Origin: Aggregatimonas sangjinii
GTDB lineage: Bacteria; Bacteroidota; Bacteroidia; Flavobacteriales; Flavobacteriaceae
Reading direction: 5' to 3'
NCBI RefSeq assembly: GCF_005943945.1
Contig: NZ_CP040710.1
Span: 248,001 to 312,000 of the forward strand
DNA: 64,000 bases
The notes beneath the pieces were generated by a model. It saw nothing but the letters and a program-made list of their open reading frames with translations. It was not told where the DNA came from and did not search any database. The translations under genes were made by a program, and so were the position numbers. Of the stretch, positions 37,448-57,663 are shown in pieces; position 1 is the first letter of the stretch; each line of letters opens with the position of its first letter.

Positions 37448-37474
37448 AAAACATGCTCCCGAAGCAGCAGTTTT
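37448..37474 (-). terminator. Weak hairpin downstream of cysN
   Basis: On the minus strand, just after the cysN stop, AAAACTGCTGCTTCGGGAGC forms a short stem (TGCT/AGCA) with flanking AAAC/GTTT and is followed by T-rich sequence. It could separate cysN from the sulfotransferase gene, but the stem is short and imperfect. Confidence 0.35.
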
Positions 37475-37487
37475 AGGGTGATTTAGA

Positions 37488-38744: not shown

Positions 38745-38807
38745 TATAAATCGTTGAATTTGCTGATCATTTCCGCATTATCGAAAAGGGCGTTGATTTT
38801 GTCGAGA

Positions 38808-39713: not shown

Positions 39714-39725
39714 ATTCTGAGAATC

Positions 39726-40722: not shown

Positions 40723-41519
40723 TGGTTACTCACTAGAAAATAAGGGTTTAAAAGATTTTCCTTGTTGTAAGTTACCTCTTTCTGAGTATGTTGTGAGATT
40801 ACTTTTACCCCAACAGCAGAGCAAATAGCATGCCCGGCAGCAGTGTCCCATTCCATAGTTGGTGCAAATCTCGGATACACATCGGCCTTGCCCTCTGCGA
40901 CCAAACAGAATTTTAAGGAACTTCCTTTAGAGACAATTTCAACTTCGGGGAATTCTTGCTTTAATTCTTCTGTAAAATAAATAGTATCATCATTCATATG
41001 TGACCGGCTAGCTACGACTCTTATTGATAAGCTTTTATTGGAATTAGGATAAATACGATCAATTTCATCATTTAGTTTATTCGTTACGACATGTTCTAAG
41101 TCTAAAACTGTTTTGAATGCCTTTTTTTCGTCAACTACGGCATAATAAAGTTCCCTTGTGACGGGTACATAGATTACTCCAAAAACCGGGATTCCGTGAT
41201 TGCATAGCGCTATATTTACGGTGAATTCCCCATTTCTTTTTATAAACTCTTTTGTTCCGTCTAGCGGATCAACAATCCAACAAGACGTCCATTCTTTTCT
41301 TGTGGAATAAGCCAATTGCTTGCTCTCCTCGCTAATGATGGGAAGGTCCGTCTCATTTAAGATTCCTACGATTTTTGCATTTGCTGCACTATCCGCAACG
41401 GTAAGTGGTGAATCATCTTTTTTATAATCAACATGAATTTCATCTTGATTGTAGACCTTCAATATCGCCTTACCACCTTCGATTGCCGCTTGTATTGCTG
41501 TTTGATATATTCGTTTCAT
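40719..41519 (-). CDS. cysQ: 3'(2'),5'-bisphosphate nucleotidase
   Basis: Hydrolyses PAP, the by-product of PAPS use, to AMP and phosphate. A 266-residue inositol-monophosphatase-fold enzyme. Metal-binding motifs are ISEESKQ (Glu of the first site), WIVDPLDGTKEFIKRNGEF (DPLDGT at about 85-90) and EWDTAAGHAICSAVG near residues 222-236. It is the first gene of the minus-strand sulfate operon and overlaps the DUF2061 gene by 4 bases (ATGA type). PAP recycling is needed where a sulfotransferase consumes PAPS, as here. Confidence 0.95.
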   Translation of the reverse strand: MKRIYQTAIQAAIEGGKAILKVYNQDEIHVDYKKDDSPLTVADSAANAKIVGILNETDLPIISEESKQLAYSTRKEWTSCWIVDPLDGTKEFIKRNGEFTVNIALCNHGIPVFGVIYVPVTRELYYAVVDEKKAFKTVLDLEHVVTNKLNDEIDRIYPNSNKSLSIRVVASRSHMNDDTIYFTEELKQEFPEVEIVSKGSSLKFCLVAEGKADVYPRFAPTMEWDTAAGHAICSAVGVKVISQHTQKEVTYNKENLLNPYFLVSNQ

Positions 41520-42021: not shown

Positions 42022-43506
42022 ATGAAAAATCTTTTTGTATTTTTTTTAGTACTGGTTTGTACCAACTTTGGTACGGCCCAAGTTAAGATAGGTGACAATC
42101 CTCAATCGCTTGACCCAACATCCATATTAGAGCTGGAAAGCAATTCTAAGGTATTGGTTATAAGTCGAATGCCGGAGGCTGAGATATTAGGTCTAACCCC
42201 TTTGCAGGGTGCCGTGGTCTACAATACCGATGCATCTTGTATCTTTTACTACGATGGTTCGAATTGGAATAATTTATGTAACGGTGGTAGCACGGGAAAC
42301 ATATCCTGGGGAACGATTACCGGTAATTTGACCGATCAAGCGGATTTGGCCGATGAATTACAAAACTACGTTGATCTAACAACTGAGCAATCGATTGCGG
42401 GAGAGAAAACACTTACCGAAAAGTTCACCGTAGATACGGGCACCCCGACCGACCGGGTCGCCGAATTCCTGGGCCGTGTAAAAGGTGAGGACGGTACGGC
42501 CCCGGAGGACTTCGTTACCAAAGCGCAATTAGATGCTTCTGGCGGAGGAGGTGGTGGTGGAGGCACTTGGGGCTCGATTACCGGTACGCTCTCCGATCAA
42601 ATGGATTTAGCCGCTGCATTTCAGAATTATGTAGATCTTGCTACCGCCCAATCGATAGCAGGTGAAAAAACACTTACCGAAAAGTTCACCGTAGATACGG
42701 GTACTACGACCGATCAGGTCGCCGAATTTTTAGGCCGTGTAAAAGGTGAGGACGGGACGGCTCCGGAAGACTTTGTTACCAAAGCACAGCTAGATGCTTC
42801 ACCTGGAGGCGGCGGTGGAACTTGGGGCTCGATTACCGGTACGCTCTCCGATCAAACGGATTTGGCCGCTACATTTCAGAATTATGTAGACCTTTCTACC
42901 GCTCAATCGATAGCAGGCGAGAAGACGCTTACCGAAAAGTTTACCGTAAATACGGGTGGTATGAACGACCAGGTCGCCGAATTTCTGGGCCGTGTAAAAG
43001 GCGAAAATGGTACCGAATTAGATGACTTTGTCACAAGGCGTCAATTGAATGCGGTTGTTGCAACAGGAGCGAGTGGTGAAGAAGGATCAATTTTTTTTGC
43101 AGGAACGGACACAGGGCTTACTGAAAACAATGATCAATTATTTTGGGACAATACCATTAATCAACTTAAGGTGGGCAATAACGTTCTTCCAAATCAAAAT
43201 GGCTCAACTAATTCTACACTAAATATACAAGGTTCGGTCTCAAAACGTATAACCTTTGGTGAAACCATATTGAACGAAACGCATCATACAGTTATTATTA
43301 ATGACCCAGCCCTGACCGCCGCAGTAATTGTTTTACCACCCGCTAACACATGTACAGGCCGAGTATACATTATAAAGAAAAGACCTAACATAGCAATCAC
43401 GATTCAAGGGGATTATATTGACAGAAACTATGTTACTACTACTGTAATGAATGATAATATTCTACACATACAGAGTAATGGTTTTCAATGGGAGCAGATC
43501 AACTAG
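42022..43506 (+). CDS. Secreted fibre-like repeat protein (copy 1)
   Basis: A 494-residue exported protein. Signal peptide MKNLFVFFLVLVCTNFGTAQ is followed by a head domain of about 70 residues beginning VKIGDNPQSLDPTSILELE, with two conserved Cys (CIFYYDGSNWNNLC). Three repeats of about 86 residues follow, each running WGSITGTLSDQ - DLxxxFQNYVDL - QSIAGEKTLTEKFTVDTG - VAEFLGRVKGEDG - DFVTKAQLDAS, joined by Gly-rich linkers. Such modules occur in phage tail-fibre-like and trimeric surface proteins. The C-terminal part starts with GEEGSIFFAGTDTGLTENNDQLFWDN and is shared with the larger paralogue at 53926. No T9SS sorting domain is visible at the C-terminus. The role in the polysaccharide locus is unknown. 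Confidence 0.75.
   Translation: MKNLFVFFLVLVCTNFGTAQVKIGDNPQSLDPTSILELESNSKVLVISRMPEAEILGLTPLQGAVVYNTDASCIFYYDGSNWNNLCNGGSTGNISWGTITGNLTDQADLADELQNYVDLTTEQSIAGEKTLTEKFTVDTGTPTDRVAEFLGRVKGEDGTAPEDFVTKAQLDASGGGGGGGGTWGSITGTLSDQMDLAAAFQNYVDLATAQSIAGEKTLTEKFTVDTGTTTDQVAEFLGRVKGEDGTAPEDFVTKAQLDASPGGGGGTWGSITGTLSDQTDLAATFQNYVDLSTAQSIAGEKTLTEKFTVNTGGMNDQVAEFLGRVKGENGTELDDFVTRRQLNAVVATGASGEEGSIFFAGTDTGLTENNDQLFWDNTINQLKVGNNVLPNQNGSTNSTLNIQGSVSKRITFGETILNETHHTVIINDPALTAAVIVLPPANTCTGRVYIIKKRPNIAITIQGDYIDRNYVTTTVMNDNILHIQSNGFQWEQIN
42307..43056 (+). repeat. Three ~258-bp tandem coding repeats
   Basis: Units begin at 42307, 42568 and 42823 (each at TGG of the WGSITG / WGTITG motif). The second and third are nearly identical in long stretches. 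Unit ends differ in the Gly linker, giving 261 and 255 bases. They encode the repeats of the fibre-like protein. Confidence 0.85.
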
Positions 43507-43924
43507 CAACTACGTTCAATAAAACGATTGATTACGTTTCACCATCCTTAAGATTTAGTTTTTAGTAGATAGGATGAGGTTTAGGTCGTTAAACAATATG
43601 GTTAACGGCCATTTAAATTAATTTTCGAGTGTTCCAAAACGTATGTATCTTGCCATAAATACCTTAAAACTCTAAGTTCAACGGGTTTATTTGGGAACCG
43701 ATCATCTATCGGGTAATTTTCGCAATTAAATTAAAAAGTTATTAGATTATTTTAATTATGCCCAAAGCGAAGAATGTCGTCTTATTGACAAACTTAAAAG
43801 AAATCATAAATTCAACTAAATGGCGTTGAGAGAGTGATCTTATGTGCTGTAATAGACTGATTCGCTGTTGTCTTAGGCGACATTTTTTGAAGTATAGTTA
43901 TTAATTAAAAATAAAATTCCCTAT
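43507..43924 (+). promoter_or_regulatory. Leader of the second wzc-like gene, with shared element
   Basis: About 418 bases without a gene. At 43639-43700 it repeats the element found at 21436-21498: ACGTATGTATCTTGC, then TAAATA, AAGTTCAACGG and TTTATTTGGG at matching spacing. The rest shows no coding potential. Confidence 0.5.
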
Positions 43925-46339
43925 ATGTACGAAGAGAACAAATCGAGTGCTGACGAGAACATCTTACGAATGCTCTTAGCCATGTTTTTACCTTATTGGC
44001 CGTTGTTTGCACTATTGATTCCCGTTTGTTTTATCGGGGCCTGGGGATACCTTAAAACTACTACTCCAGTCTATGAAGCTTCGGCAACTCTTATCATTAA
44101 AGATGAAAACAAAGGCGTAGATGATGCGAAGGTTTTGGAAGCCATGAATCCCTTTGACTCAAAGAAAATAGTTGAAAACGAACTCGAAATCATAAAGTCA
44201 AGAACCATAATGACTCAAGTGGTTAAAGGGTTACAATTATATGCACCTTTTTATGAAGATAAATTGTACGGCTCTAAGGAAGCGTATACTACTTCGCCAA
44301 TAGCAGTTGAACTAAGAAATCCGGAAAATATCGTTCTACCATCAGGTGGAGAACCTTTAAAGTTTTATTTCGAATATGATTCGGTTAAGAACTCAGTTGA
44401 AATCGATAACAAGTCATACCCAATTGGCGAATGGGTTGAAGGCCCTATTTTTGGAGAAACAAGGTTCGAGTTAAATGAGAATAAATCAGAAAATGCTGAA
44501 CGAGCGATTTACTATACCTTCATGAATCCTAAAAAGCTTAGCATAAGTCTTTTAGGAAGCTTGGAAGCCAGTCCCACGGATAAATTATCGACGGTTGTTC
44601 GACTTACTTACCGCGATCCTATACCGCAAAGAGGTGAGAATATACTGAATCATTTGATTGCGGCGTACAATCAAAAAGCTATTTCCGACCGGGATGAACT
44701 TGCCTCGAACACACTTACCTTCATTGATGAGCGTATGAGTGAAGTTGAAAAAGAGCTCAATGCGCTTGAATCTTCGATTCAACGCTTTAGGTCGGAAAAG
44801 GGTGTAGTTGATTTAAGTGAACAAGGAAAACTTTATCTATACGACGTTGGCGAATACGACCGCCAAATAGCGAGGATAGATAGGCAACTTGCCGTTTTGA
44901 ACAAAGTTCAACAATATGTAATTTCTAAAAAAAACCAATCCGGTATCGTACCATCTACTCTAGGGGTAGAAGACCGTGTTTTATCTCAATTGTTAGAGAA
45001 ACTATATGATTCAGAAGTAGAATATGAGAAATTACGAAAAACGACTGCAGAGAACAACCCAATTCTTACCTCATTAGCCGATGAAATCAATAAGATAAGA
45101 CCTAGCATACTCGAGAATATACGAAATCAAAAAAATAACCTTACCACAAGTTTGAGTAGCTTAAATTCCAATGCTGATCAATCTGCCTCGGCACTCAAGA
45201 ATATTCCGGAAAAAGAACGAGCGTTGTTAGAGATTGAAAGGGGGAAAGAAATCAAAAACGAACTCTATTCATTTTTGCAGCAAAAAAGAGAAGAAACAGC
45301 CCTTAGTTATGCACCAAATGGTGGTGACGGAAGAATTGTTGATTTGGCGCAATCCTCCGCAGGTCCTGTTTCACCGAATTCTTCACTTATTTATTTGGTG
45401 GCTTTGGTGTTGGCTTTCGGGATAGGGTTGGGTTATATCATTTTTAAAGAGATGCTGAACAAAAATGTGCTATTCCGTTCAGAAATTGAAAATGCTATCG
45501 ATGCACCTGTGGTTTTAGAGTTGCCACATTTAGATGACGTAAAAGAGTCGCAAAAATCTACGAATTTCATAACCAATATATTTTATAGACTAGGGCTAAG
45601 GAATATTCTTCGTTCAAATCGGCAAACTATTAAAACAAAACAAAATGAGGCAGTACTAATACATCATTTTAGACAACTTGGGTCCTCAATGGGTTTGTAT
45701 AGCCGTGTTTTCAAGAAAAAGAAAATTTTGGTTACCTCAAGTATTGAAGGTGAGGGAAAAAGCTTTGTTAGTACCAACCTCTCCTTTAGTCTAGCTCAAT
45801 CAGGTAAAAAAGTAGCTCTTGTCGATATGGATTTTTTGAAACCCCAAACATCCCGTTACTTTAAGCTCCTCAATCAGAGAGGTGTTTTAGATTATTTATC
45901 ACATAAAGCGGAGTACGCGAAGATTTTGACTAATTCACATGGGAATAAAAATCTATATATAGTTCCTGTTGGAAATAGGGTTGATGACCATACCCAGCTT
46001 CTTTTAAATGGAAAATTAGAGGTTCTTTTTAAAGAATTATCCAGTGATTTCGATTACGTGATAATCGACTCGGCTCCGGTAAATCTTGTGGCCGATGTTA
46101 AACTATTGGCAGAGTACAGCGATGAAACTATTTACGTTATACGACACGGTAATACACCTTTGAAAATTCTCAAGCATTTAGATGACTCCGAGACTTTGGA
46201 GAATCTTAATAATGTGTCGGTTGTTTTTAATGGAATAAAACAAAGAGGCCTCGTTAAAGGCGATTACAATTATGGTTATGGTTTGAACACTAAATTATAT
46301 GGAGAGGCGTATGGTGCTGAAATGGAATCAAAATCATAA
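43925..46339 (+). CDS. Wzc-like polysaccharide co-polymerase / bacterial tyrosine kinase (copy 2)
   Basis: An 804-residue paralogue of the protein at 23377, alignable over its whole length. Transmembrane segments are at about residues 19-41 and 484-506, with the periplasmic Wzz-type coiled-coil region between (shared blocks such as KTTAENNPI and SGIVPSTLG). The kinase has Walker A SSIEGEGKS (Lys612), Walker A' LVDMDF and Walker B YVIIDSAPV. The tyrosine tail is KGDYNYGYGLNTKLYGEAYG. A linker of about 20-30 residues before the kinase (FITNIFYRLGLRNILRSNR) is absent from copy 1. It would pair with the Wzy and Wzx of block C; no second Wza-like gene is seen, so the exporter may be shared. Confidence 0.92.
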   Translation: MYEENKSSADENILRMLLAMFLPYWPLFALLIPVCFIGAWGYLKTTTPVYEASATLIIKDENKGVDDAKVLEAMNPFDSKKIVENELEIIKSRTIMTQVVKGLQLYAPFYEDKLYGSKEAYTTSPIAVELRNPENIVLPSGGEPLKFYFEYDSVKNSVEIDNKSYPIGEWVEGPIFGETRFELNENKSENAERAIYYTFMNPKKLSISLLGSLEASPTDKLSTVVRLTYRDPIPQRGENILNHLIAAYNQKAISDRDELASNTLTFIDERMSEVEKELNALESSIQRFRSEKGVVDLSEQGKLYLYDVGEYDRQIARIDRQLAVLNKVQQYVISKKNQSGIVPSTLGVEDRVLSQLLEKLYDSEVEYEKLRKTTAENNPILTSLADEINKIRPSILENIRNQKNNLTTSLSSLNSNADQSASALKNIPEKERALLEIERGKEIKNELYSFLQQKREETALSYAPNGGDGRIVDLAQSSAGPVSPNSSLIYLVALVLAFGIGLGYIIFKEMLNKNVLFRSEIENAIDAPVVLELPHLDDVKESQKSTNFITNIFYRLGLRNILRSNRQTIKTKQNEAVLIHHFRQLGSSMGLYSRVFKKKKILVTSSIEGEGKSFVSTNLSFSLAQSGKKVALVDMDFLKPQTSRYFKLLNQRGVLDYLSHKAEYAKILTNSHGNKNLYIVPVGNRVDDHTQLLLNGKLEVLFKELSSDFDYVIIDSAPVNLVADVKLLAEYSDETIYVIRHGNTPLKILKHLDDSETLENLNNVSVVFNGIKQRGLVKGDYNYGYGLNTKLYGEAYGAEMESKS

Positions 46340-46395
46340 GTGGCGGCATAAATGTTATTATGCTAGATAGTATTGTCGGAGCAGGAATACAAAAC

Positions 46396-47095
46396 ATGAA
46401 AGAACAATTGAAATCTTTTGTAAGGAAATCACCTTTTCTATTGAAGGCAATTAGAAATTTTAGAGAAGGTAAAATGTTTGAGAAATCATATTTAAAATCC
46501 ATTCAAGGAAATGATAATGTTCTTAAAATTGAAACTTCGGCTCGACTGAACAACTGTAAAATTGATATCATCGGCAATTCAAACTACATTAGCATCGAGG
46601 ACGAAAGTGTTTTGAACAATGTTGTCATATTCATTAGAGGTAACAAAAATCAAATTATCATCTCAAGAGAAGTAAAGTTCAATCGCGGTGGGGAGTTATG
46701 GTTCGAAGATGATTTTTGCGAATTGTTTATTGGTGAAAATTCAACATTTGAAGACACGCATATTGCCGTAACGGAACCAAAGTCGAAGTGCACCATAGGT
46801 AAAGATTGTATGTTTGCAAACAATATCGATATTAGAACCGGCGATTCGCATTCGATCATTGATATTAAAAGTCAGAAAAGAATTAATCTTGCGGAGAACG
46901 TTAGCATAGCGGATCATGTATGGGTGGGTGCCCATGCTTCTATACTCAAGGGATCAAGCTTAGCGCCAAATTCAAATTGTAGCAACTAGATCCGTGGTAA
47001 CCAAACGCTTTGAAGAAGGAGGAGTAATTATTGCCGGAATACCTGCAAAGGTGGTTAAACAGGATATCACATGGGATAGAAAAAGAATTTACTAG
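46396..47095 (+). pseudogene. Hexapeptide acyltransferase with C-terminal frameshift
   Basis: The frame starting at ATG 46396 (or 46360) encodes a left-handed beta-helix acyltransferase: NVLKIETSARLNNCKIDIIGN, then VWVGAHASILKGSSLAPNS, but stops at 46989. In the +1 frame the sequence continues seamlessly as IVATRSVVTKRFEEGGVIIAGIPAKVVKQDITWDRKRIY to a stop at 47095, which is the expected family C-terminus (AGxPAKVV). An extra A in the triplet AAA at 46974-46976 explains the break. The fault removes the CoA-pantetheine contact and last coil, so the gene is probably inactive unless the frame is restored or the base is a sequencing error. Confidence 0.8.
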
Positions 47096-47151
47096 ATAGC
47101 CTTCAACCAATTATTTCCTCGGACAAAACAAGAAAAACACATCCCATAGGT

Positions 47152-48510
47152 TTGATTCAAAAAATTAAAAACATTCTTTTCGGAGGGCACGAACGAACCG
47201 CAAAGGCCAATAAGAATATTTTAGGCTCTTTTATAATAAAAGTGGTCAGTATTGTAATTAGCTTGGTCGTTGTGCCACTTACGCTTAATTACGTGAATCC
47301 TTCTAGATACGGTATTTGGCTCACACTTAGCTCAATCGTTGCTTGGTTCAGCTTTTTTGATATCGGTATTACCCACGGTTTAAGAAATAAATATGCAGAG
47401 GCAAGAGCTAAAGGTGACAATAAAAGTGCCCAAATTTATATCAGCACTACTTACGGAATCTTAGCCATTGTTTTCATAACGATCTGGCTGTTATTTCTAG
47501 TAATCAATCCTTTTTTGGATTGGTCTGATTTATTAAAACTTTCCCCGGAATACGGTTCCGATGTTTCAAAACTGGCTCTAATAGTCTTTACTTACTTCTG
47601 TATGCAGTTTGTACTAAGAACAATTACTACCATTATTTCTGCGGATCAAGAGCCGGCCAAAGCCTCACTGATCGATGTAATCGGCCAAATCATTTCATTG
47701 GTGGTCATAGTGATACTTGTGAAAACGACTGAGGGTTCCTTGGTAAACCTTGGCATTGCGCTTTGTGCTTCACCACTTTTGGCACTTATTGGAGCTAATA
47801 TTTTCTTTTTCAAAGGAAAATATCGCGAATTCAAACCTACATTCTCAAAGGTGAAATTTTCGTACGCGAAGAGTCTTTTTAATCTTGGTGTCGTGTTCTT
47901 TATTATTCAAATTGCTGGCTTAATACAGTTCGAATCCGCCAATGTTATCATTTCTAGAAACTTTGGTCCCGCCGATGTAACCGATTACAATATCGTTTTT
48001 AAATACTTCGGGGTTTTAAGCATGGGATTTACTATTTTTTTAACGCCATTTTGGTCAGCGGCCACTGAAGCATATGTTAAAAATGATATTGGGTGGATAA
48101 GGGATAGTATGAAAAAATATAATGTCCTTAATATTTTCTTTGTCCTTCTCGGGATTATCATGTTGTTTTTTGCCGACGACATCTACGATTTATGGTTGGG
48201 GGAAGAAACCGTAAACATCGACTTTTTATTATCGCTTTGGGGCCTGATATTTTTTACCGTTTCTATTTTCGGATCAAAATATGTTAGTTTTTTAAACGGA
48301 ATCAGTGCACTTCGCCTTCAATTTTGGGCGAGCGTGGTAAGCCCTGTAGTATACTTAATCTTAACTTTAGTTTTTATTGAATATTTCAAGATGGGAGTTT
48401 ATGCATTATTTGTGGCATCCGTAGTTGCGAATTTCAATGCCTTTATCTTAGCACCTATTCAATATCACATGATAATCAATAAAGGCAAAAAGGGAATTTG
48501 GATTAGGTAG
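47152..48510 (+). CDS. Polysaccharide flippase (Wzx/MOP family, copy 2)
   Basis: A 452-residue membrane protein with about twelve to fourteen helices, starting at TTG 47152; no ATG fits the N-terminus MIQKIKNILFGGHERTAKANKNILGSFIIKVVSIVISLVVVPL, of which KNILGSFIIK and LTLNYVNPSRYGIWLTLSSIVAWFSFFDIGITHGLRNKYAEA are typical MOP-superfamily O-antigen flippase features. It would flip the lipid-linked repeat unit made by the block C transferases. Only distantly similar to copy 1. Confidence 0.9.
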   Translation: MIQKIKNILFGGHERTAKANKNILGSFIIKVVSIVISLVVVPLTLNYVNPSRYGIWLTLSSIVAWFSFFDIGITHGLRNKYAEARAKGDNKSAQIYISTTYGILAIVFITIWLLFLVINPFLDWSDLLKLSPEYGSDVSKLALIVFTYFCMQFVLRTITTIISADQEPAKASLIDVIGQIISLVVIVILVKTTEGSLVNLGIALCASPLLALIGANIFFFKGKYREFKPTFSKVKFSYAKSLFNLGVVFFIIQIAGLIQFESANVIISRNFGPADVTDYNIVFKYFGVLSMGFTIFLTPFWSAATEAYVKNDIGWIRDSMKKYNVLNIFFVLLGIIMLFFADDIYDLWLGEETVNIDFLLSLWGLIFFTVSIFGSKYVSFLNGISALRLQFWASVVSPVVYLILTLVFIEYFKMGVYALFVASVVANFNAFILAPIQYHMIINKGKKGIWIR

Positions 48511-48535
48511 TGCTGAGCGCCAAGAAAATAATCAA

Positions 48536-49729
48536 ATGAAGAACGATAGTTTTAAAACAAGGCTTACCAGGAACCTATGGAGCAATTTTAAGGATATCTT
48601 CTATTCCGAGCGTATTGAAGATACGGCTGTAATACAGAACCTTAATTTTACGGCTACAAGAAAACAAAAAAAGGCTATAGTATGTTATTTGACCGTAAGT
48701 TATACTGCAGATTGGGGTAATCAAAATATAGGAAGAACACAGCCTTTGGAGATTCTGTCTATCGTAAAGGTTTTATCTGATCTTGATTATGCAATCGATG
48801 TAGTAAATTGTAACGACATGCGCGCGTTGCCCATCATCGCATCAAAAGATTATCATCTTGTTTTTGGTTTTGGGGAAGTGTTTTATCAACTTACCCTTAA
48901 GCACCCGAATGCGATGTCTATTATTTATATGACCGAGCATCATCCAGATTTTGCCGACCGTGAAGAGAAGAAGCGCATCGCATATTTTTACGAACGTCAT
49001 CAAAAGAAAGCGCGCATTGTAAGAAGCGGTAATTACTATAAATCTCATTATTTTAACCAGCAATATTCCCATTTGGTGACCCTGGGTGAGGTTGATCCTT
49101 TTTTAAAAGAGTATAAATCTCCTTTTACCATATTTCCCACAGGTGTGGTAAATACTAATTTTGTATTTGAAAAAAGAGATCACGTCACTACAAGAAATCA
49201 TTTCTTATGGCTAGGTTCTTTTGGTGCAGTGCACAAAGGGCTGGATTTATTATTGGATGTTTTTGAGAATCGAGATGATCTTGTTTTACATATTGCCGGC
49301 TTGTCGGAAGAAGATGAAGCGCTTTTAACACCTAAGAAAAGAGCGAATATTATAAACCACGGATATCTTAATGTTAAAACAGAAACTTTTCTGGAATTAG
49401 TCAAAAATTGCAGTTTCAATATATTGCCATCCTGCTCTGAAGGGTTTTCCACAGCGATTACAACTGGTATGTTTCATGGCTTAATCCCAATTGTAATGCG
49501 AGATACGGGATTTAACCGTTTAAAGAATAACGCTATTTTTTTAGAAGACTACAAAGTACCTTATTTAAATCAAAAATTAACTGAAATTTCCGCAAGGCCC
49601 TCTAAAGAGTTAGCGAATTTCAGTAAGAGTGTTTTTGAATTCGCGCATGAAAATTTTTCCAATTCCGCTTTTGAAATGAACTTTAAAGAAATCATTGATA
49701 CAATAATGAAAAATGAACAAAATGATTAA
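48536..49729 (+). CDS. Glycosyltransferase (GT4-like)
   Basis: A 397-residue GT-B protein. The N-terminal part is unusual, with YLTVSYTADWGNQNIGRTQPLEILSIVKVLSDLDYAIDVVNC. The C-terminal domain has HFLWLGSFGAVHKGLDLLLDVFENR (about residues 220-245), then VKNCSFNILPSCSEGFSTAITTGMFHGLIPIV with the E-x7-E-like nucleotide-sugar site replaced by a shorter form. It probably adds a sugar of the second repeat unit. It overlaps the next gene by 17 bases, so both are cotranslated. Confidence 0.82.
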   Translation: MKNDSFKTRLTRNLWSNFKDIFYSERIEDTAVIQNLNFTATRKQKKAIVCYLTVSYTADWGNQNIGRTQPLEILSIVKVLSDLDYAIDVVNCNDMRALPIIASKDYHLVFGFGEVFYQLTLKHPNAMSIIYMTEHHPDFADREEKKRIAYFYERHQKKARIVRSGNYYKSHYFNQQYSHLVTLGEVDPFLKEYKSPFTIFPTGVVNTNFVFEKRDHVTTRNHFLWLGSFGAVHKGLDLLLDVFENRDDLVLHIAGLSEEDEALLTPKKRANIINHGYLNVKTETFLELVKNCSFNILPSCSEGFSTAITTGMFHGLIPIVMRDTGFNRLKNNAIFLEDYKVPYLNQKLTEISARPSKELANFSKSVFEFAHENFSNSAFEMNFKEIIDTIMKNEQND

Positions 49730-50957
49730 AGTCGTTCATTTACAAACACATCTGCCTTCTTCGGGAAATGCAGCTTTTCGACTGCACCAAGCGCTGAATC
49801 AAAATGGTGTGCATTCAAGAATGCTATCTTTGACATCGGATGTAGCGCCAAACACCAATTTAAATCACCTGAATCTAAAAGCCACAATTGTGGCAAGGTT
49901 GAACAGTAAATTTCACAATCGTCATAATGAAAATGTTATTGAGAAGTTCGGTCTTTTTTCATATCCCGTTTTAGGTACTGATATTTCAAATCACCACTTT
50001 GTACGTGAAGCTGATGTAATCTATATTCACTGGGTGCTCGCAGGTTTTTTGAACTTCTCCGGCCTTGAGAAACTTATGAAATTAGGCAAACCGATTATTT
50101 TTTTTATGCACGATATGTGGACCATAACAGGGGGTTGTCATCACAGTTTTACCTGCACAAAGTATTCAGGAACCTGTAGTAAGTGTCAAATGTTCGAAAA
50201 TGCCAAAACAAACGGGCTTCCTGCAAAAGAACTGCGAAAAAAGGTACGGTTATACCACAAATACGATAATTTAAACTTTGTCTCTCCCAGTAACTGGCTC
50301 TACGAGCTCGCAAAGAAATCGGTTTTAACAAAAGACAAGCCGCTTTTTCATATTCCCAATCTTGTTGATACTACAATCTTCAAACCCGCGGATAAAAAGA
50401 CGGTTCGACAGATTTTAAATTTGCCAAATACTGGAACTCTTATTGGTTTTGGAGCCATTTCACCAAAAAGTCCCTATAAAGGCTGGTCTTACTTAAAGAA
50501 AGCCTTCGAGCTTGTAGCTGAACAAGGAAGGGAAGATATTGGTATAGTGATTTTCGGTAGTGATTATGATCAAGAAATAGAGCAGGCACTACCTTTTAAA
50601 TGCTACTTTGTCGGGCGACTAAGGGATGAGTATTCATCCGCATTGGTATATAATGCCGTCGATCTTTTTGTAGCGCCATCGCTTGCCGAAACCTTCGGCT
50701 TGGTGATTCTAGAGTCGCTGCGTTGCGGCACTCCCGTTGTAGCCTTTAAAACTGGCGGAATACCCGAGTTGATACGTCATAAAAAAAATGGCTACCTAGC
50801 CAAGTATAAAGATAGTTTAGACCTTGCCGAAGGAATTTTGTTCTGTCTCAATATGTTAAGCAGCGGTGAAGCCTTGCCGGAATTTGATACCGAAGTGATC
50901 GTCAAACAACATTTAGCGCTTTATAAACAAATAGCACCAAATAAATTCATTGGTTGA
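49713..50957 (+). CDS. Glycosyltransferase family 4
   Basis: A 414-residue GT-B enzyme. N-terminal features are KVVHLQTHLPSSGNAAFRLHQAL and FMHDMWTITGGCHHSFTCTKYSGTCSKC, a Cys-rich segment typical of GT4 proteins of this subfamily. The C-terminal domain has LIGFGAISPKSPYKGWSYLKKAFELV and DLFVAPSLAETFGLVILESLRCGTPVVAFKTGGIPELI, the E-x7-E donor site at about residues 325-360. It starts 17 bases inside the previous gene. The donor sugar is unknown. Confidence 0.9.
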   Translation: MNKMIKVVHLQTHLPSSGNAAFRLHQALNQNGVHSRMLSLTSDVAPNTNLNHLNLKATIVARLNSKFHNRHNENVIEKFGLFSYPVLGTDISNHHFVREADVIYIHWVLAGFLNFSGLEKLMKLGKPIIFFMHDMWTITGGCHHSFTCTKYSGTCSKCQMFENAKTNGLPAKELRKKVRLYHKYDNLNFVSPSNWLYELAKKSVLTKDKPLFHIPNLVDTTIFKPADKKTVRQILNLPNTGTLIGFGAISPKSPYKGWSYLKKAFELVAEQGREDIGIVIFGSDYDQEIEQALPFKCYFVGRLRDEYSSALVYNAVDLFVAPSLAETFGLVILESLRCGTPVVAFKTGGIPELIRHKKNGYLAKYKDSLDLAEGILFCLNMLSSGEALPEFDTEVIVKQHLALYKQIAPNKFIG

Positions 50958-50958
50958 A

Positions 50959-52257
50959 ATGGCAAATTCTCCTAAGGAAATATTTAAAGGGCTGGGTGCG
51001 GATTTTCACCAAAAACCAGTGTACTATTATTTTTGGGGCGGCATTTTACTTTATATGCTAGGTTTCGCTATTTCTACAACTCCAAGCCCAATCTATATCA
51101 TTTGCGATTTACTACGGGTAGTTGGTATTTTGATTTTTGTTGTTTCAGCTACTCAGATGATATCGTATTCCTTTGAAAATAGGTACCTGAAAGTCATTTA
51201 CACGCTGTATTTAGTTTGGATGGGAATAATTGTTTTTCGAGGTTTAAAATTAGAATATGAATTCACCAAAGATTTACTATTTGATCCTTTTATGGGAGTA
51301 TTTCTATATTTCGCCCCTCTTTTTCTTCTTTTTCCCAAAACACATTTATTTTACAAGGCTACCTTCAAAATGCTCATTTTTGCAGCCTTGCTATTTGGTG
51401 TTTTCATGTTGTATTCTTCAGTAGACCTTTTAAATTTGAAATATGAGTTGGGGCGGGACACGCTTGAATATTACGTTAAGTTATTAGGACTTCCTGTTGG
51501 GTTTCTTATACTAACATATCCCTATCAAAATAAACAACGTAGATTTATAGCGGTTTTTGTGATATTATTAGTTTTTTTATCAGCCACATATAGGGCTAGA
51601 AGGGGATTAATGTTTATGTCTGGCACCGTATTTATTTTTACTTCTTTTATTTATATCCTAAAAAATAAAAAACAATTTTTAACCATAATTTTTGGCACAT
51701 TATTACTGTTATTATTTTCTGGGTTTGCCTACACACTTTTTGGAACAGGGGATTCTATTATTTTAAACAAAGTAACGGAACGCTTAGATGAAGATACTCG
51801 TACTGGTGTAGAAGAATATTTTTATGCCGATATGCAATTACGCGATTGGATCGTTGGTAGAGGCATGAGTGGTCTTGTCGCGGCACCAATAGATTTAGAT
51901 CCTTCGGAGGAGCATCCTGGCTATCGTGAAGGAGTTGAGACCGATTACCTTACCATTATTTTAAAAGGTGGGATAATTGGTCTCGGGCTATTACTGTTGA
52001 TTGCAATTCCTGCGATAATCAAAGGTTTATTCTTTTCAAAAAACTTGCTTTCAAAAGCTGCTGGATTTTGGATTTTACTTTGGCTTGTTTCGCTATACCC
52101 GTCTACTGTAACTTCATTTACGTTAAGCTATATATTGGTTTGGATTTCAATTGGCATTTGCTATTCGGATACCATTCGCCTTAGTTCAGAGGAAATCGTA
52201 GCTCAATACTTAAATCCGGCCAAACGAAAAATGGAAAGTAAGAAGAAATATTTATAA
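50959..52257 (+). CDS. Wzy-like polysaccharide polymerase (copy 2)
   Basis: An integral membrane protein of 432 residues from ATG 50959, one base after the previous stop; a TTG 9 bases earlier is possible. About ten hydrophobic helices are seen. The late extracytoplasmic loop contains LRDWIVGRGMSGLVAAPIDLDPSEEHPGYREGVETDYLTIILKGGIIGLGLLLL, which has the shape of Wzy/O-antigen polymerase loops (GxG...ExDYLxILxxGGIIG). No close sequence match to copy 1 is visible. It would polymerise the repeat unit of block C. Confidence 0.8.
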   Translation: MANSPKEIFKGLGADFHQKPVYYYFWGGILLYMLGFAISTTPSPIYIICDLLRVVGILIFVVSATQMISYSFENRYLKVIYTLYLVWMGIIVFRGLKLEYEFTKDLLFDPFMGVFLYFAPLFLLFPKTHLFYKATFKMLIFAALLFGVFMLYSSVDLLNLKYELGRDTLEYYVKLLGLPVGFLILTYPYQNKQRRFIAVFVILLVFLSATYRARRGLMFMSGTVFIFTSFIYILKNKKQFLTIIFGTLLLLLFSGFAYTLFGTGDSIILNKVTERLDEDTRTGVEEYFYADMQLRDWIVGRGMSGLVAAPIDLDPSEEHPGYREGVETDYLTIILKGGIIGLGLLLLIAIPAIIKGLFFSKNLLSKAAGFWILLWLVSLYPSTVTSFTLSYILVWISIGICYSDTIRLSSEEIVAQYLNPAKRKMESKKKYL

Positions 52258-52280
52258 CCGCTCGCAGTAACACATACCTT

Positions 52281-53600
52281 ATGCCCTTACCTAAAGTTCT
52301 TATTCTCAATCAACCGTTCGTCAATGATACCGGGGGTGGAATTACCTTATCGAATCTCTTTTCAGGTTGGGACAAAGATAAGCTGGCGGTTGCATGCCTG
52401 GGCTATGTGCTGACTCCTCATATAGACCCGACAGTTTGCAACAACTATTATCAATTAGGTGATGAGGAGCGAAAGTGGATTTTTCCCTTTAATATTTTAA
52501 GTAGAACCTATAAAAGTGGCCCTATAAAATTTACGGATACTTCAAAAAAAAATATAGTTGAAGAAGTTTCAAAATCGAAAACCAGAGTAGGCTTTCTTAA
52601 CACATATTTAAATCCCTTTTTAGAATTTACGGGTCTTTCACAGATAATTACCAGGACAACATTATCTCCAAAATTCAAAAGATGGCTTGATGAGTATTCT
52701 CCTGACGTAATTTATTTACAATGCTCTACACGTGAAAGTATCTTGTTCTGCATAGAAGTCTTAAAATATTTAAAAAAGCCCAGCGTATTTCACATGATGG
52801 ATGATTGGCCAATGCTTATAGGCATAAAGGGCTTTTTCGGATCTTATTGGAAGAATAGAATCGATAAGGAATTTAAAGAACTGCTAAACTTGGCAGATAC
52901 GCATTTAAGTATATGTGATTATATGGCGGAAGCATACAAAATTAGATATGGTATTGATTTTGTTACTTTTCATAATCCGATCGACATTGATTTTTGGCAA
53001 AAGGGTCAAAAAAAACAATATGCACTGAACGGTACCCCTAAACTGATGTATGCCGGCCGTATAGGTTTAGGTATTGATGATTCCTTAAAAACAGTGGCGA
53101 AGGCCATAGAAAAAATTAATACGGAGCTCCAAATGAATATTCAATTTATAATTCAATCGATTGCAGCGCCTTCTTGGATAAATAACTATTCAGTGGTGGT
53201 ACACAAAAACTTTGTGCCCTACTCTCAATTACCTTTCGAATTTGGCTCGGTTGATTTTTTAATCTTACCTTATGATTTTAGTCCTGAATCCTTAGCCTAC
53301 ATTAAATATTCAATGCCTACGAAAGCTTCCGAGTATATGGCAAGTGGGACACCTATTATAATTTATGCACCGCAAGAAACTGCTTTGGTAGATTATGCAC
53401 AGCGAAACAAGTGGGCGACCCTGGTCACGGATCAAGCAGAAAATAAATTGGTTGAAGGGTTAAAAAAAATAATCTTAGACGATAATTATCGCCGAAAACT
53501 GGCAGAAATAGCTACGAACGTTGCCATTGAGAGACATGATATTAGAACTGTAGGAAAAGATTTTCAAAAAATTCTTTCAGAAACTGCGCGGAAAAATTAA
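52281..53600 (+). CDS. Glycosyltransferase (GT4-like)
   Basis: A 439-residue GT-B protein. It starts with KVLILNQPFVNDTGGGITLSNLFSGW, an N-terminal acceptor domain with a GGG loop. HMMDDWPMLIGIKGFFGSYWKNRI lies mid-protein. The donor domain has KLMYAGRIGLGIDDSLKTVAKAIEKI and YSMPTKASEYMASGTPIIIYAPQETALVDYA, matching the acidic nucleotide-sugar site of GT4 enzymes. It completes the run of three consecutive transferases around the second polymerase. Confidence 0.87.
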   Translation: MPLPKVLILNQPFVNDTGGGITLSNLFSGWDKDKLAVACLGYVLTPHIDPTVCNNYYQLGDEERKWIFPFNILSRTYKSGPIKFTDTSKKNIVEEVSKSKTRVGFLNTYLNPFLEFTGLSQIITRTTLSPKFKRWLDEYSPDVIYLQCSTRESILFCIEVLKYLKKPSVFHMMDDWPMLIGIKGFFGSYWKNRIDKEFKELLNLADTHLSICDYMAEAYKIRYGIDFVTFHNPIDIDFWQKGQKKQYALNGTPKLMYAGRIGLGIDDSLKTVAKAIEKINTELQMNIQFIIQSIAAPSWINNYSVVVHKNFVPYSQLPFEFGSVDFLILPYDFSPESLAYIKYSMPTKASEYMASGTPIIIYAPQETALVDYAQRNKWATLVTDQAENKLVEGLKKIILDDNYRRKLAEIATNVAIERHDIRTVGKDFQKILSETARKN

Positions 53601-53925
53601 GAAAATGAAATAGCCGACAACCTTAGGTGACTACATGTCTCCCTTGAATGCTTCGCGGTTAACGACAGATTATCGAAAAATTGGTATTCCTATTTTCAAA
53701 AAATCTATTTTTGCAATCCTATTCAAATTGAAACCTTAGTTTTTTAGTAAGAGTAGTTGATAATTAATTTGATGTTTTGTCTTTAAAAACTTAGGACTGA
53801 AGAAAAGTAGGGTTTTTGAGGAGTTAGAGGTTTTAGAATAGTACTAGTTTATATAAAAAACAGAAGGGCAAATATCTAATTTTCAATATATTATATAACG
53901 AAGAGTACTTCCAAAGTTGTAAATA
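53601..53925 (+). promoter_or_regulatory. Promoter region of the large fibre-like protein
   Basis: About 325 gene-free bases. TATTTTTG at 53706-53713 is an exact TAnnTTTG, with TTG at 53681-53683 upstream (22 bases apart), a plausible Bacteroidota promoter. It would leave a leader of about 205 bases before the start codon at 53926. No clear hairpin was found. Confidence 0.45.
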
Positions 53926-56622
53926 ATGGAAAACACTGTCCCCCCATTCATTGTATTTCACAAACAAAGTGTAGTGATTGTGCTTTTTCTTTTATCGCTT
54001 GGTAGCACCTTTGCTCAGGTAAAAATAGGGGATAACCCTCAAAGTATCGATTCCGCTTCGCTTTTAGAACTTGAAGGCACTGATAAGACAATGGTTTTGT
54101 CAAGAATCACAACTACACAAATGCAAGCCATAACTCCCTTGCAAGGTGCGATAGTTTACAATATTGAAGAGCAATGTGTTTTTTATTACAACGGTTTGGC
54201 TTGGATGAACCTTTGTAAGGATGCAAGTGGATTTTCAATAGTAGATAACGGAAACAATACTTACACGGTTAATGATGGTATCAATCCCGAATTTACATTT
54301 TCAACCAACACGGAAACCATTACCAATATCGTACAAAACCCAGATGGCACATACACCTATACCAACGAAGCGGGTGAGGAAACGCTTATAGCAACTAGTG
54401 CCACGGGTACTAGTACTTTTTCGATAACGGATAATGGAAATAATACCTACACGTTCAACGATGGTACTATTCCGGCATTTACACTTTCGGCCAATCCGGA
54501 AACCATTACCAATATCGTACAAAACCCAGATGGAACCTACACCTATACCAACGAAGCGGGTGAGGAAACGCTTATAGCAACTAGTGCCACAGGTACTAGT
54601 ACTTTATCGATTACGGATAACGGAAACAATACCTATACATTCAACGATGGTACCATTCCGGCCTTTACACTTTCGGCCAATCTCGAAACCATTACCAATA
54701 TTGTGCAAAATCCTAACGGAACATTTACATATACGAATGAAGCCGGCGAAGAAACCGTGATTGCCAATGGCTCTGGTACAGGTATGAGCACTTTATCAAT
54801 AGTGGATAATGGCGATAATACCTACACCGTAAATGACGGCGTAAATCCCGAATTCACTATTATAGCGACTCCGGAAACCGTTACGAATATTACCCAAAAT
54901 ACAGACGGGTCGTACACTTATACCAATGAAGCTGGTGAGGAAACCATTATTGCTTCAAGCGCCTTAACGATTACCGATAATGGGGATAACACCTATACGT
55001 TCAATGATGGAACAAATCCGGCATTTACCATTACAGCGACTCCGGAAACCGTCACGAATATTACCCAGAATACAGACGGGTCGTACACTTATACCAATGA
55101 AGCCGGAGAGGAAACCATTATTGCTTCAAGCGCCTTGACGATTACCGATAATGGCGATAACACCTATACTGTCAATGATGGAACAAATCCCTCATTTACC
55201 ATTACAGCGACTCCGGAAACCGTCACGAATATCACCCAGAATACTGATGGGACGTATACCTATACTAATGAAGCTGGAGAGGAAGCAACTATTGCTTCAA
55301 GTGCACTCGCGATTACTGATAATGGCGATAATACCTATACCGTAGATGACGGCGTAAATCCTGAATTTATAATCACAGCTAAACCAGAAACGATTACCAG
55401 TATCACCGAAAATACTAATGGAACCTACACCTATACCAATGAATCCAACCAAGAAGTTATCATCTCATTGAGTGGCACTAGTGAAGAAGGTTCTGTTTTT
55501 TTTGCCGATAATTCTAACGGTTTTGGAGAAAATAACACGCAGTTCTTCTGGGACAATATAAATGAACGCCTAGGTATTGGAACAAATACAAATCTTACCG
55601 ATAAACTTACTTTAAATGGCACCTTAGGTATCGCCGATGGCAGCGTATCGGAACCGTCATATCGTTTTTCGGCCGACCCTGATACTGGTATTTTTAGGAG
55701 TGATGATAATGAAATAGGTTTTACTGTCGGTGGTACTTCAAATATGAAGCTAACAGAAACCGGCTTATACTTAAATAATGCTTTGCCTATTGACCCATCA
55801 TTAACTGACATGCCTTTATTGATAAGAGCAAACGAAGGCGAACTATTTGGTTTACAGCGTACCAATGGCGATTTAAAGTGGATTCTTAATCTTCGCGAGC
55901 AGACTTCCAGTGTTCGTGGTGGATTATCCTTTGTTGAATTAGGGATTAATTCCAGATTTTTTATTGAAAATACAAGAAATCCTTCAGGACCGGATTTTGG
56001 CAGGATTGGAATCAATACTGACAATCCGCAAGAAACATTACATGTTGTTGGGAACATGAGGGTCACTGACTTACCTCCATCCGCACCCAATGATAATATC
56101 GTAACCGTTGACGAGTTTGGCCGTTTTCATAAATCGACTAACACAGTAGCATCAAGGTCGGCTAAAAATTCAGAAATTAATTTCATGGCTCGGTGGATGA
56201 ATACATTGATAAATATTCCACTTACAAACGGAAGAGCCACATTACCCATTTTCGGTGTTGAAGATATTAATGACGGGGGTGGAAATTATTGCCAAGTGGT
56301 CGAAAATGAATTACATGTCAAAACAAACGGAGTCTATGAAATTAAGGCAACAATTGCACTAAGCGGAAATCTGCAATCAAACGGTCTACCTGCTAATACC
56401 TATGCTCGAATTTCTGTGAATGACGTCGAAAAAGGCGCAATAAATGTAGCTGGCTATAGTGGGGCGACAGATTCAAATTCGCTTTCAAGTATTCATTTGA
56501 ACGACATTTTAAAACTTCAAACTGGTGATAAAGTCGCCATTACGTTATTTAGCAATGCAAGCGCTTCTGCAATTAATTTGGCAGGTTCTAAAACATCTAA
56601 TTTTACAATTATCAAGCGATAA
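53926..56622 (+). CDS. Secreted fibre-like repeat protein with C1q-like C-terminus (copy 2)
   Basis: An 898-residue exported protein. A long signal (MENTVPPFIVFHKQSVVIVLFLLSLGSTFAQ) precedes the same head domain as in the 42022 protein (VKIGDNPQSIDSASLLELE; CVFYYNGLAWMNLC). Then come seven repeats of about 57-62 residues (about 103-517): SITDNGNNTYTFNDG - PxFT - ETxTNITQNTDGSYTYTNEAGEETxIA. A GEEGSVFFADNSNGFGENNTQFFWDN module follows, then ERLGIGTNTNLTDKLTLNGTLGI and RFSADPDTGIFRSDDNEIGF as in phage tail-fibre stems. The C-terminal 150 residues (INFMARWMNT ... GVYEIKATIALSG ... DKVAITLFSNAS) resemble a C1q/TNF-like jelly-roll head. A trimeric surface fibre is likely by analogy; the function is unknown. 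Confidence 0.75.
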   Translation: MENTVPPFIVFHKQSVVIVLFLLSLGSTFAQVKIGDNPQSIDSASLLELEGTDKTMVLSRITTTQMQAITPLQGAIVYNIEEQCVFYYNGLAWMNLCKDASGFSIVDNGNNTYTVNDGINPEFTFSTNTETITNIVQNPDGTYTYTNEAGEETLIATSATGTSTFSITDNGNNTYTFNDGTIPAFTLSANPETITNIVQNPDGTYTYTNEAGEETLIATSATGTSTLSITDNGNNTYTFNDGTIPAFTLSANLETITNIVQNPNGTFTYTNEAGEETVIANGSGTGMSTLSIVDNGDNTYTVNDGVNPEFTIIATPETVTNITQNTDGSYTYTNEAGEETIIASSALTITDNGDNTYTFNDGTNPAFTITATPETVTNITQNTDGSYTYTNEAGEETIIASSALTITDNGDNTYTVNDGTNPSFTITATPETVTNITQNTDGTYTYTNEAGEEATIASSALAITDNGDNTYTVDDGVNPEFIITAKPETITSITENTNGTYTYTNESNQEVIISLSGTSEEGSVFFADNSNGFGENNTQFFWDNINERLGIGTNTNLTDKLTLNGTLGIADGSVSEPSYRFSADPDTGIFRSDDNEIGFTVGGTSNMKLTETGLYLNNALPIDPSLTDMPLLIRANEGELFGLQRTNGDLKWILNLREQTSSVRGGLSFVELGINSRFFIENTRNPSGPDFGRIGINTDNPQETLHVVGNMRVTDLPPSAPNDNIVTVDEFGRFHKSTNTVASRSAKNSEINFMARWMNTLINIPLTNGRATLPIFGVEDINDGGGNYCQVVENELHVKTNGVYEIKATIALSGNLQSNGLPANTYARISVNDVEKGAINVAGYSGATDSNSLSSIHLNDILKLQTGDKVAITLFSNASASAINLAGSKTSNFTIIKR
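54232..55476 (+). repeat. Seven tandem coding repeats (~171-189 bp)
   Basis: Repeats encoding the DNGNNTYT ... YTYTNEAGEE unit. The first three units carry a Ser/Thr-Gly linker (TSATGTST type) and are about 186 bases; the last four are 171 bases and lack it. Neighbouring units are almost identical over long stretches, so recent expansion is likely. Confidence 0.85.
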
Positions 56623-56742
56623 TCGATAAAATGTTACGTTAAATTCTGTTTGTGACAAAAATCCAAATATGTAAATTTCGTTTATTCCTGGTTGCTATTT
56701 TTAATTGGCAGATTATTTTCGTCGCAAAATCTTAGAAGACAT

Positions 56743-57663
56743 ATGAATCCAGTGGTTATAGGCATACCAACTTACAAAAGACCGATAATGCTTGAGAAAT
56801 TGATTCTCAGTATTTACGATAGCCAGATAAACCAAGATTTGATTGATACCATATGTATTGTAGTAGTTGATAACGATAAGGGACGTACAGCGGAGTCTGT
56901 AATTAAATCCCTCAAGAAGAAATGTGCCCCTCCTTTTACGCTTCACTATTTCAACTTCGCTAAGAAAGGCCTTACGCATGTGAGAAATGAGATTTTAAAA
57001 CAATCATTGAAATTTAATCCAGAATATATCGCATTTGTCGATGATGATGAATATGTCACTAGAAATTGGTTAAATGAACTTGTTAAAACAATGATTCATA
57101 TGAATGCCGATATGGTTCTTGGGCCTAATCTTCCTGTTTTTGAAAAAGCAGTTCCGGAATATATCGCACGTTGGTTCTATGTGGAAAATTTCGAAACAAA
57201 TACACAGATAGAACTCGTTGAATCAAATAACCTACTGATAAAAGCCAAGTTTCTTAATGACCATAAACTCCGTTTCGATTCTAGATTTGATCAAACGGGC
57301 GGGGAAGATACTTTTTTTGGTGTTCAGGCCATTCAAAAAGGAGCTCGAATTTTTTGGTCACACAATGCCATTGTATACGAAACAATACCTGAAAAAAGAG
57401 CTACCTTAAAATGGGTGATGCGCAGAATTTACAGGGCAGCATCGACTTTTACGTATATTCTTAAGTTAAAAAAAGCATATGTAATGCTTGTAAGGAAATT
57501 CTTCATCAGCATACTTTATTTAGGATTCGGAATTTGCAGTTTGGTCTTTTTACCATTTTCTAGTAAACATAAATACTTGGGATTGATTAAAATCAGTGAA
57601 GCACTCGGAGGTTTTGCGGGAATGATAAATATTAGGTACAAAGAATATGCAACCGATAATTGA
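56743..57663 (+). CDS. Glycosyltransferase family 2
   Basis: A 306-residue GT-A enzyme from ATG 56743 (frame open to TTG 56692). The N-terminus VVIGIPTYKRPIMLEKLILSI is the nucleotide-binding strand, with IVVVDNDKGRTAESVIKSL and the acidic metal site YIAFVDDDEYVTRNWLNEL (DDD at about 99-101). ESNNLLIKAKF and RFDQTGGEDTFFGVQAIQKGARIFW (catalytic ED) follow. A hydrophobic C-terminal segment (FFISILYLGFGICSLVFLPF) may attach it to the membrane. It probably extends the repeat unit in the cytoplasm. Confidence 0.9.
   Translation: MNPVVIGIPTYKRPIMLEKLILSIYDSQINQDLIDTICIVVVDNDKGRTAESVIKSLKKKCAPPFTLHYFNFAKKGLTHVRNEILKQSLKFNPEYIAFVDDDEYVTRNWLNELVKTMIHMNADMVLGPNLPVFEKAVPEYIARWFYVENFETNTQIELVESNNLLIKAKFLNDHKLRFDSRFDQTGGEDTFFGVQAIQKGARIFWSHNAIVYETIPEKRATLKWVMRRIYRAASTFTYILKLKKAYVMLVRKFFISILYLGFGICSLVFLPFSSKHKYLGLIKISEALGGFAGMINIRYKEYATDN

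Follow-up and report, generated by a model that had tools for sequence, protein, structure and literature searches.

The 64,000-nucleotide stretch of the Aggregatimonas sangjinii genome analysed here (hereafter the window; C1:248001-312000, within a single-contig genome of 4.72 Mb) encodes two related fibre-like proteins, which belong to one head family that occurs in two settings, linked either to the T9SS or to exopolysaccharide (EPS) genes, without overlap in our sample. Both window proteins lie in the EPS setting. We propose from sequence comparison, and with slightly less than even confidence, that they are secreted, probably trimeric matrix fibres, an optional accessory of the Wzx/Wzy-type EPS loci of Flavobacteriaceae, and that their tip would bind polysaccharide.

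An earlier note on this DNA had described the two reading frames as secreted proteins with a common signal peptide and a common head containing two cysteines, and the comparison by BLASTP agrees. Signal peptide and head of protein 1 and protein 2 align at 46% identity over 101 aa (E 5e-24), and the surroundings of the FFA module at 33% identity over 108 aa (E 1e-9); the likeness of the two proteins exceeds chance. The GEEGSxFFA module that the note had assigned to both is indeed shared, although its exact spelling holds for protein 1 only (GEEGSIFFA), protein 2 reading SEEGSVFFA. The middle repeats are wholly different, as had been stated: protein 1 has three copies of about 251 nt (71-100% identity to the reference copy) and protein 2 has seven unrelated copies of about 186 nt (65-100%). 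The two proteins are related within the window, but the description as a paralogous pair was too narrow, as a third strong copy of the head is present in the same genome at C1:735 kb, outside the window, where it adjoins a T9SS-sorted protein and has no EPS-gene matches nearby. Coordinates of all features are given in Table 1.

Table 1. Fibre proteins and neighbouring polysaccharide genes, in window positions.
Feature	Position	Strand	Description or basis
Protein 1, alpha-type fibre, 494 aa	42022..43506	+	Signal peptide, head, three-repeat stalk, FFA module, tip I
Signal peptide of protein 1	42022..42078	+	By eye; Gln directly before VKIG
Head of protein 1	42079..42279	+	KIGDNPQ...C...W.NLC; BLASTP match to protein 2
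Stalk of protein 1	42307..43073	+	Three ~251-nt copies, WGSITG...QSIAGEKTLTEKF...AEFLGRVKGE
FFA module of protein 1	43066..43182	+	GEEGSIFFA...ENN..LFWD
Tip I of protein 1	43249..43503	+	C-terminus of LQSNGFQWEQIN type in relatives
Second polysaccharide core	43925..53600	+	Pfam/NCBIfam; kept in L049, L055, L095, L114, L189
Protein 2, gamma-type fibre, 898 aa	53926..56622	+	ORF and BLASTP against protein 1
Signal peptide of protein 2	53926..54015	+	By eye
Head of protein 2	54016..54216	+	BLASTP match to protein 1
Stalk of protein 2	54219..55478	+	Seven ~186-nt copies, DNGNNTYT unit
FFA module of protein 2	55474..55593	+	SEEGSVFFA...ENN..FFWD
Tip II of protein 2	56176..56619	+	Predicted C1q/TNF/BclA-like jelly roll
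Family-2 glycosyltransferase (GT56692)	56692..57663	+	Directly 3' of protein 2

Heads were collected by a search over one genome per species (84,980 species), in which 243 head loci were confirmed and the 80 best of these retained. Head-like sequences were present in 26 of 60 genomes searched, A. sangjinii included (E<=1e-5), some of them being weak members of a broader head family. This broader family is expanded in two genomes of the same order and other families (G038 and G048), with 25 and 23 weaker head matches per genome. All 108 distinct heads have Gln directly before the VKIG motif, a count that is partly built in because one of the two search patterns contained the Gln. Both head cysteines are kept in 107 of the 108, and the remaining head has neither. 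A Gln at the mature N-terminus is in line with the 'Q-rule' described for Bacteroidetes proteins that signal peptidase I cleaves (PMC5837995, PMC10653852). Taken together, the signal peptide (recognised by eye), the Gln and the paired cysteines suggest export from the cytoplasm, but not passage through the outer membrane. No T9SS sorting domain, of the CHU_C/TIGR04131 or Por_secre_tail type, was matched at E<=1 in protein 1 or protein 2.

The head profile matched nothing among PDB sequences at E<=10, and the best Pfam match over 20 heads was DUF2793, at 0.016. The fold of the head weakly matches the trimerisation domains of collagens XV and XVIII (Z 4.9 and 4.6) and, likewise weakly, the N-terminal domain of Mtd (1.6 A over 41 residues, Z 4.4). 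Collagen-like stalks, which need three chains, follow the head in 9 of the 108 proteins, their longest runs ranging from 17 to 711 Gly-X-Y triplets. The run of 711 consecutive triplets belongs to a head protein of Aquimarina mytili (L112:9944-17179), and very long collagen-like stalks are likewise present in L082, L083, L108 and L242. A third, short kind of head protein of 312-330 aa (L059, L064, L088, L091, L105, L106, L120) ends in 'VYRNG.RI.F...GD.IRIVQ'; a small secreted-looking protein is encoded 3' of it, with no EPS match and no directly adjoining T9SS partner.

The FFA module, of consensus G(S/A)xFFA...ENN...(F/Y)WD, is sited after the stalk and before the tip. Tip I has homologous C-termini in 25 rows of the tip comparison, duplicates counted, and weakly matches the fold of phage tailspike and spike domains, the best being the end domain of a tailspike depolymerase (Z 7.2, too low a value to be relied on by itself). 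Model confidence is low for the stalks and for protein 1 (mean pLDDT 41.5). Tip II is predicted to be a jelly roll of the C1q/TNF superfamily over the whole domain: its AlphaFold2 model, with block pLDDT of 53-87, matches C1q/TNF-type folds by Foldseek (E 2e-7) and BclA by VIA (Z 15.5, 2.4 A over 130 residues), and has viral fold matches as well. At the sequence level, the match of tip II to Pfam TNF (E 0.044) falls short of the family cut-off. Four other Pfam families (Integrase_DNA, DUF6953, PAS_4, DUF903) reached the cut-off for protein 2 as a whole, and were set aside as repeat artefacts because no single stretch passed. Given the predicted C1q/BclA fold of tip II, the collagen-like stalks of relatives and the weak match of the head to trimerisation domains, trimerisation of the fibres is likely.

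Neighbouring genes were then examined for 94 head proteins, all distinct and complete, after removal of duplicate C-termini and of head ORFs truncated at a contig end. A T9SS-sorted (CHU_C) partner was found beside 57 of them, and none of these 57 had an EPS-gene match nearby, bearing in mind that our queries fail to detect distant EPS genes (those of L216 were missed), so that the lack of a match is no proof of absence. Among the 37 partner-less head proteins, 13 had at least two EPS-gene matches within about 11 kb, and 16 had at least one. Random 20-kb stretches of the same genomes gave two EPS matches in 0 of 40 and one in 2 of 40, and by tblastn at 1e-8 any match in 0 of 40. The EPS linkage of partner-less fibres differs from that of partner-bearing ones (13/37 vs 0/57, Fisher 1.2e-6) and from that of random stretches (13/37 vs 0/40, Fisher 1.9e-5), both values being an indication only since the rows are related. 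In many loci the partner, of about 385 aa, lies 3' of the fibre, and the copy in A. sangjinii has a CHU_C/T9SS type-B sorting domain. This genome has one full-length partner (C1:731846-732997), beside the third head copy, and seven other matches that cover the C-terminal domain only; no CHU_C partner was found beside protein 1 or protein 2. T9SS-paired fibres, exemplified by the pair at C1:731-736 kb (fibre and CHU_C type-B protein), have the same head, the same kinds of tip and in part the FFA module, but differ from the window fibres by their T9SS-sorted neighbour, by having no EPS-gene match nearby (57/57), and by stalks that are often much longer.

Including the two of the window, 15 EPS-linked fibres were counted, 13 by query matches and two by reading and Pfam: in L073 genes for a GDP-mannose dehydratase and an epimerase adjoin the fibre, and in L216 a pyruvyl transferase, two glycosyltransferases and a Wzy homologue are encoded within 10 kb. 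Fibre-like secreted proteins beside wzx, wzc and glycosyltransferase genes, as the earlier note had seen them in the window, thus recur in other Flavobacteriaceae. The head, however, is common away from polysaccharide genes, the very outcome that the note had named as speaking against its view, and the head alone was rejected as a marker of EPS loci, 57 of the 94 head proteins having a T9SS partner and no EPS-gene match. All 15 EPS-linked fibres have the FFA module (13/13 of those found by query matches, plus L073 and L216), as do 15/57 partner-bearing fibres and 7/24 other partner-less ones, these seven including L073 and L216; as the 94 proteins were gathered by head, FFA module and Wzx, and not at random, these shares are inflated. 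The module is typical of the EPS setting, not peculiar to it, and the better EPS marker is head plus FFA module without a T9SS partner. When 397 genomes of the family were sampled by the FFA module, 45 places were found: 7 were EPS-linked without partner, two of them those of the window, and the stretches around the remaining 38 have a partner and lack EPS matches.

The 11 EPS-linked heads then known do not form one clade. They require 5 changes on the head tree against a mean of 10.6 in shuffles, none of 500 being as low, and are therefore clustered on a tree whose 70 columns give it low resolving power. L073 is the sole EPS-linked case with T9SS-type genes seen beside the fibre: a gene for a PorP/SprF-family T9SS membrane protein (L073:8850-9755) and one for a large secreted protein directly precede its alpha fibre. 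In A. sangjinii, PorP/SprF-family genes are found at 14 places, none of them inside the window.

The EPS-linked fibres fall into three subtypes, with L045 as a mixed case in which tip I stands on a short stalk. The alpha subtype consists of protein 1 and the fibres of L073, L230, L233 and L234, which have a common stalk, in 4, 4, 2 and 1 copies respectively by motif count. All five fibres bearing this stalk are in EPS loci; it is absent from all other of the 94 complete head proteins, and a search of 344 genomes of the family returned it in three (the window's own, G160 and G316), all at places already known. The other alpha fibres share 59-71% identity with protein 1, though the loci have few other genes in common. 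The beta subtype (L054, L066, L216) shares a Wzy-like protein at 58-62% identity, while the flippases of the three loci gave no mutual match. Of 397 genomes searched for this beta Wzy-like protein at E<=1e-30, one has it: G267, the home of L216. The same genome accounts for the single EPS-linked beta fibre in the set of 45 FFA places. The beta fibre thus accompanies the beta Wzy in two genera. EPS clusters bearing a fibre in L045, L054, L216 and L234 adjoin homologous methylmalonyl-CoA mutase-like genes, recognised by eye, which mark a shared EPS hotspot.

The gamma subtype comprises the six EPS-linked fibres with a C1q tip, namely protein 2 and those of L049, L055, L095, L114 and L189; the relatives have fewer stalk copies than protein 2 by motif count. 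Gamma fibres lie between the same two glycosyltransferase genes of one core, with one extra glycosyltransferase in between in L055, and the cores give 10 to 15 reciprocal matches per locus pair. In 4 of the 10 cores counted (L190, L191, L192, L195) the fibre is missing and the GT56692 homologue directly follows the homologue of glycosyltransferase GT52281, from which we conclude that the gamma fibre is an accessory not needed for making the polymer. Sampling matters here, as 4 of the 6 fibre-bearing cores were found through the head; among five gamma cores found by a Wzx search alone (G183, G215, G387, G262, G256; 20 of 23 non-window places read), only that of G183 has a fibre. Outside the ten, the core of L196 extends as far as the GT52281 homologue, without GT56692 homologue or fibre. 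Gamma fibres diverge more than their core (36-71% identity in the shared C-terminal region vs 65-93% for Wzx), and fibre and core co-diverge weakly (Mantel test of the fibre against Wzx, r 0.58, P 0.04; against the glycosyltransferase, r 0.55, P 0.09).

These comparisons also bear on the layout of the window. The earlier note had seen the two fibres as a pair bracketing the second polysaccharide core, and such a unit does not recur: alpha and gamma fibres each stand alone elsewhere, with one head fibre in each of 13/13 other EPS-linked stretches of about 20 kb. For protein 1, the other loci point both ways between the first and the second core: in L230 a sugar transferase and Wzc come after a fibre with the same stalk, and in L045 a related tip follows a homologue of the first core. 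Assigning protein 1 to the first core as its last gene, on the strength of L045, was considered and given up, as L230 and L234 have the same fibre beside a sugar transferase.

By Pfam and NCBIfam, the window's EPS locus agrees with the Wzx/Wzy type in its PF01943 flippase, its Wzc, its glycosyltransferase families and its PF02397 initiating transferase. Its second core encodes Wzc, an acetyltransferase-like protein, Wzx, two glycosyltransferases, a Wzy-like membrane protein and a further glycosyltransferase. The Wzc matches Wzz, GNVR, AAA_31 and TIGR01007 eps_fam above cut-off; the Wzy-like protein (50950-52257) has no match among Pfam and NCBIfam models at E<=1e-3 and owes its name to position and conservation. 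Inside the EPS region, on the minus strand at 36495-41519, are the sulfate activation genes CysN, CysD, adenylyl-sulfate kinase and CysQ, and beside them a gene (36495-37271) that looks sulfotransferase-like by eye and matched no NCBIfam model; given the sulfate activation genes, the polysaccharide of the window may be sulfated. Lipoprotein-like genes without Pfam match and with 38% identity to each other adjoin homologous EPS cores in the window (29901-30752) and in L045 (8727-9572). Just left of the EPS region a tRNA gene on the minus strand (19461-19534) is a possible integration point, and was the sole match of an Rfam scan of positions 19000-64000.

Regulatory signals were searched as well. 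The flavobacterial promoter motif, TTTG-N17-23-TANNTTTG, occurs twice in the window against 4 expected, and not upstream of the fibre genes. Between 41500 and 57000, sigma-70-like sites number 67 vs 51.1 (sd 6.6) in shuffles, scattered and with none assigned, and terminator-like sites 13 vs 11.8, one of them (43866-43882) between protein 1 and Wzc.

How might such fibres work? In the reading we prefer, the head would trimerise the chain, the stalk would act as a spacer of adjustable length, and the tip would bind the polysaccharide of its own locus, or some other ligand at the margin of the slime. The bound fibre would become part of the matrix and help to retain or cross-link the polymer. What holds the fibre would be the T9SS-sorted partner in the T9SS-linked setting, and may be the polysaccharide itself in the EPS-linked one. 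The distribution of the tips speaks against polymer specificity, since both types also occur in or beside T9SS-paired loci without EPS matches: tip I in many of them, and C1q-type tips in L082 and L136 and, by their C-terminal letters, L212, L215 and L222. The tip itself is therefore no polysaccharide signature. A bolder version supposes one trimeric fibre family with exchangeable anchors, the T9SS-sorted partner or the EPS of the own locus, in which beta and gamma fibres would be polymer-specific lectins carried as a cassette with the polymerase, so that fibre type would predict polysaccharide type; we regard this version as rather unlikely.

Of the other explanations the most serious, though we still consider it unlikely on balance, is a surface adhesin that does not bind polysaccharide, but projects beyond the polymer coat to let its tip bind other cells, algae or surfaces; it would be encoded with EPS genes because a polymer-coated cell requires an adhesin of sufficient reach. 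We keep this explanation because T9SS-paired fibres use tips of the same kinds and because the alpha fibre is maintained in EPS loci of unlike make-up, an observation with which recognition of one specific polymer fits poorly. The stalks point the same way, their copies varying by motif count (1-4 in alpha, 1-7 in gamma) while head, module and tip are kept. On the other hand, gamma fibres and beta fibres each go with a single type of core or polymerase, and protein 1 and protein 2 showed no match to a sorting domain or any other anchor.

The predicted tip of protein 2 calls to mind BclA-type spore fibres and C1q-domain proteins, in which a C1q/TNF jelly roll likewise stands at the end of a stalk. 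The collagen-like stalk of BclA-type fibres is also found in relatives of the present head, whereas the repeat stalks of the window are not collagen-like, and the window fibres differ further by their N-terminal head and their Gram-negative setting. The exosporium protein BclA is glycosylated; the BclA-like fold predicted for the tip, together with the glycosyltransferase directly 3' of the gamma fibre, could thus mean that the locus glycosylates the fibre, which would then display the glycan. This seems improbable to us, as the same glycosyltransferase is kept in cores without fibre and the O-glycosylation motif of Bacteroidetes, D[ST][AILMTV], is scarce (0 vs 2.5 expected from shuffles in protein 1, 1 vs 4.9 in protein 2).

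With phage tail fibres and tailspikes (PHROG tail families, N-terminal domain of Mtd) the window fibres share the plan of head, repeat stalk and exchangeable tip. PHROG tail families match parts of the protein 1 stalk (best 1.3e-13), the tip II model has its viral fold matches, and EPS loci are variable and exposed to phages, all of which would suit the tail fibre of a prophage, or a decoy for phages, retained in a locus that varies. We nevertheless give this origin little credence: both fibres have signal peptides and lie in a bacterial EPS locus, no phage genes were recognised by eye among the window ORFs, and no close phage homologue was found, tblastn against 50,697 phage records at E<=1e-3 returning nothing for protein 1 and three partial matches (at most 21% covered) for protein 2. 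Nor do we see more than a slim chance that the fibre genes merely hitch-hike, inserting at recombination-prone EPS loci with no functional tie. The presence or absence of the fibre at one gamma-core site and the common hotspot beside methylmalonyl-CoA mutase-like genes are what one would expect of such insertions, but partner-bearing fibres of the same family are not seen in EPS loci (0/57), the FFA module is found in 15/15 EPS cases, and beta fibre and beta Wzy stay together across two genera. The least probable is that the fibre is an enzyme that processes polysaccharide, either a depolymerase of tailspike type or one that trims chains: EPS loci can encode polymer-trimming enzymes, and tip I resembles the C-terminal part of a tailspike depolymerase (Z 7.2), but the part matched is an end domain, with Z below 8, and no catalytic domain was matched in Pfam, NCBIfam or PDB sequences.

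To return to the matrix fibre that we favour, secreted EPS-tied matrix proteins as such are already known, and it is this fibre family in such a role that would be new. The rbm genes sit between the two vps clusters, and we take the folds of RbmA/RbmC/Bap1, LecB and CdrA to differ from those of the window fibres; proteins of the RbmA, LecB and CdrA type are not phage-like fibres, unlike those of the window. RbmA binds VPS (PMC5605196), and LecB (PMC6522473) and CdrA (PMC7484184) act with Psl; RbmA/RbmC/Bap1 with VPS, and LecB and CdrA with Psl, are secreted, bind their own exopolysaccharide and shape the matrix, binding that for the window fibres is our proposal. Some animal C1q-domain proteins are lectins (PMC6409975). 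Among titles and abstract beginnings of the openly licensed literature, we found no description of fibres of this sort in EPS loci.

How marine flavobacteria hold their exopolysaccharide is, to our knowledge, poorly understood. The fibre genes, as an optional part of EPS loci, put names to candidate matrix proteins whose binding of polymer can be tested, and a natural contrast is at hand in fibres of one family that either have a T9SS-sorted partner or lack it.
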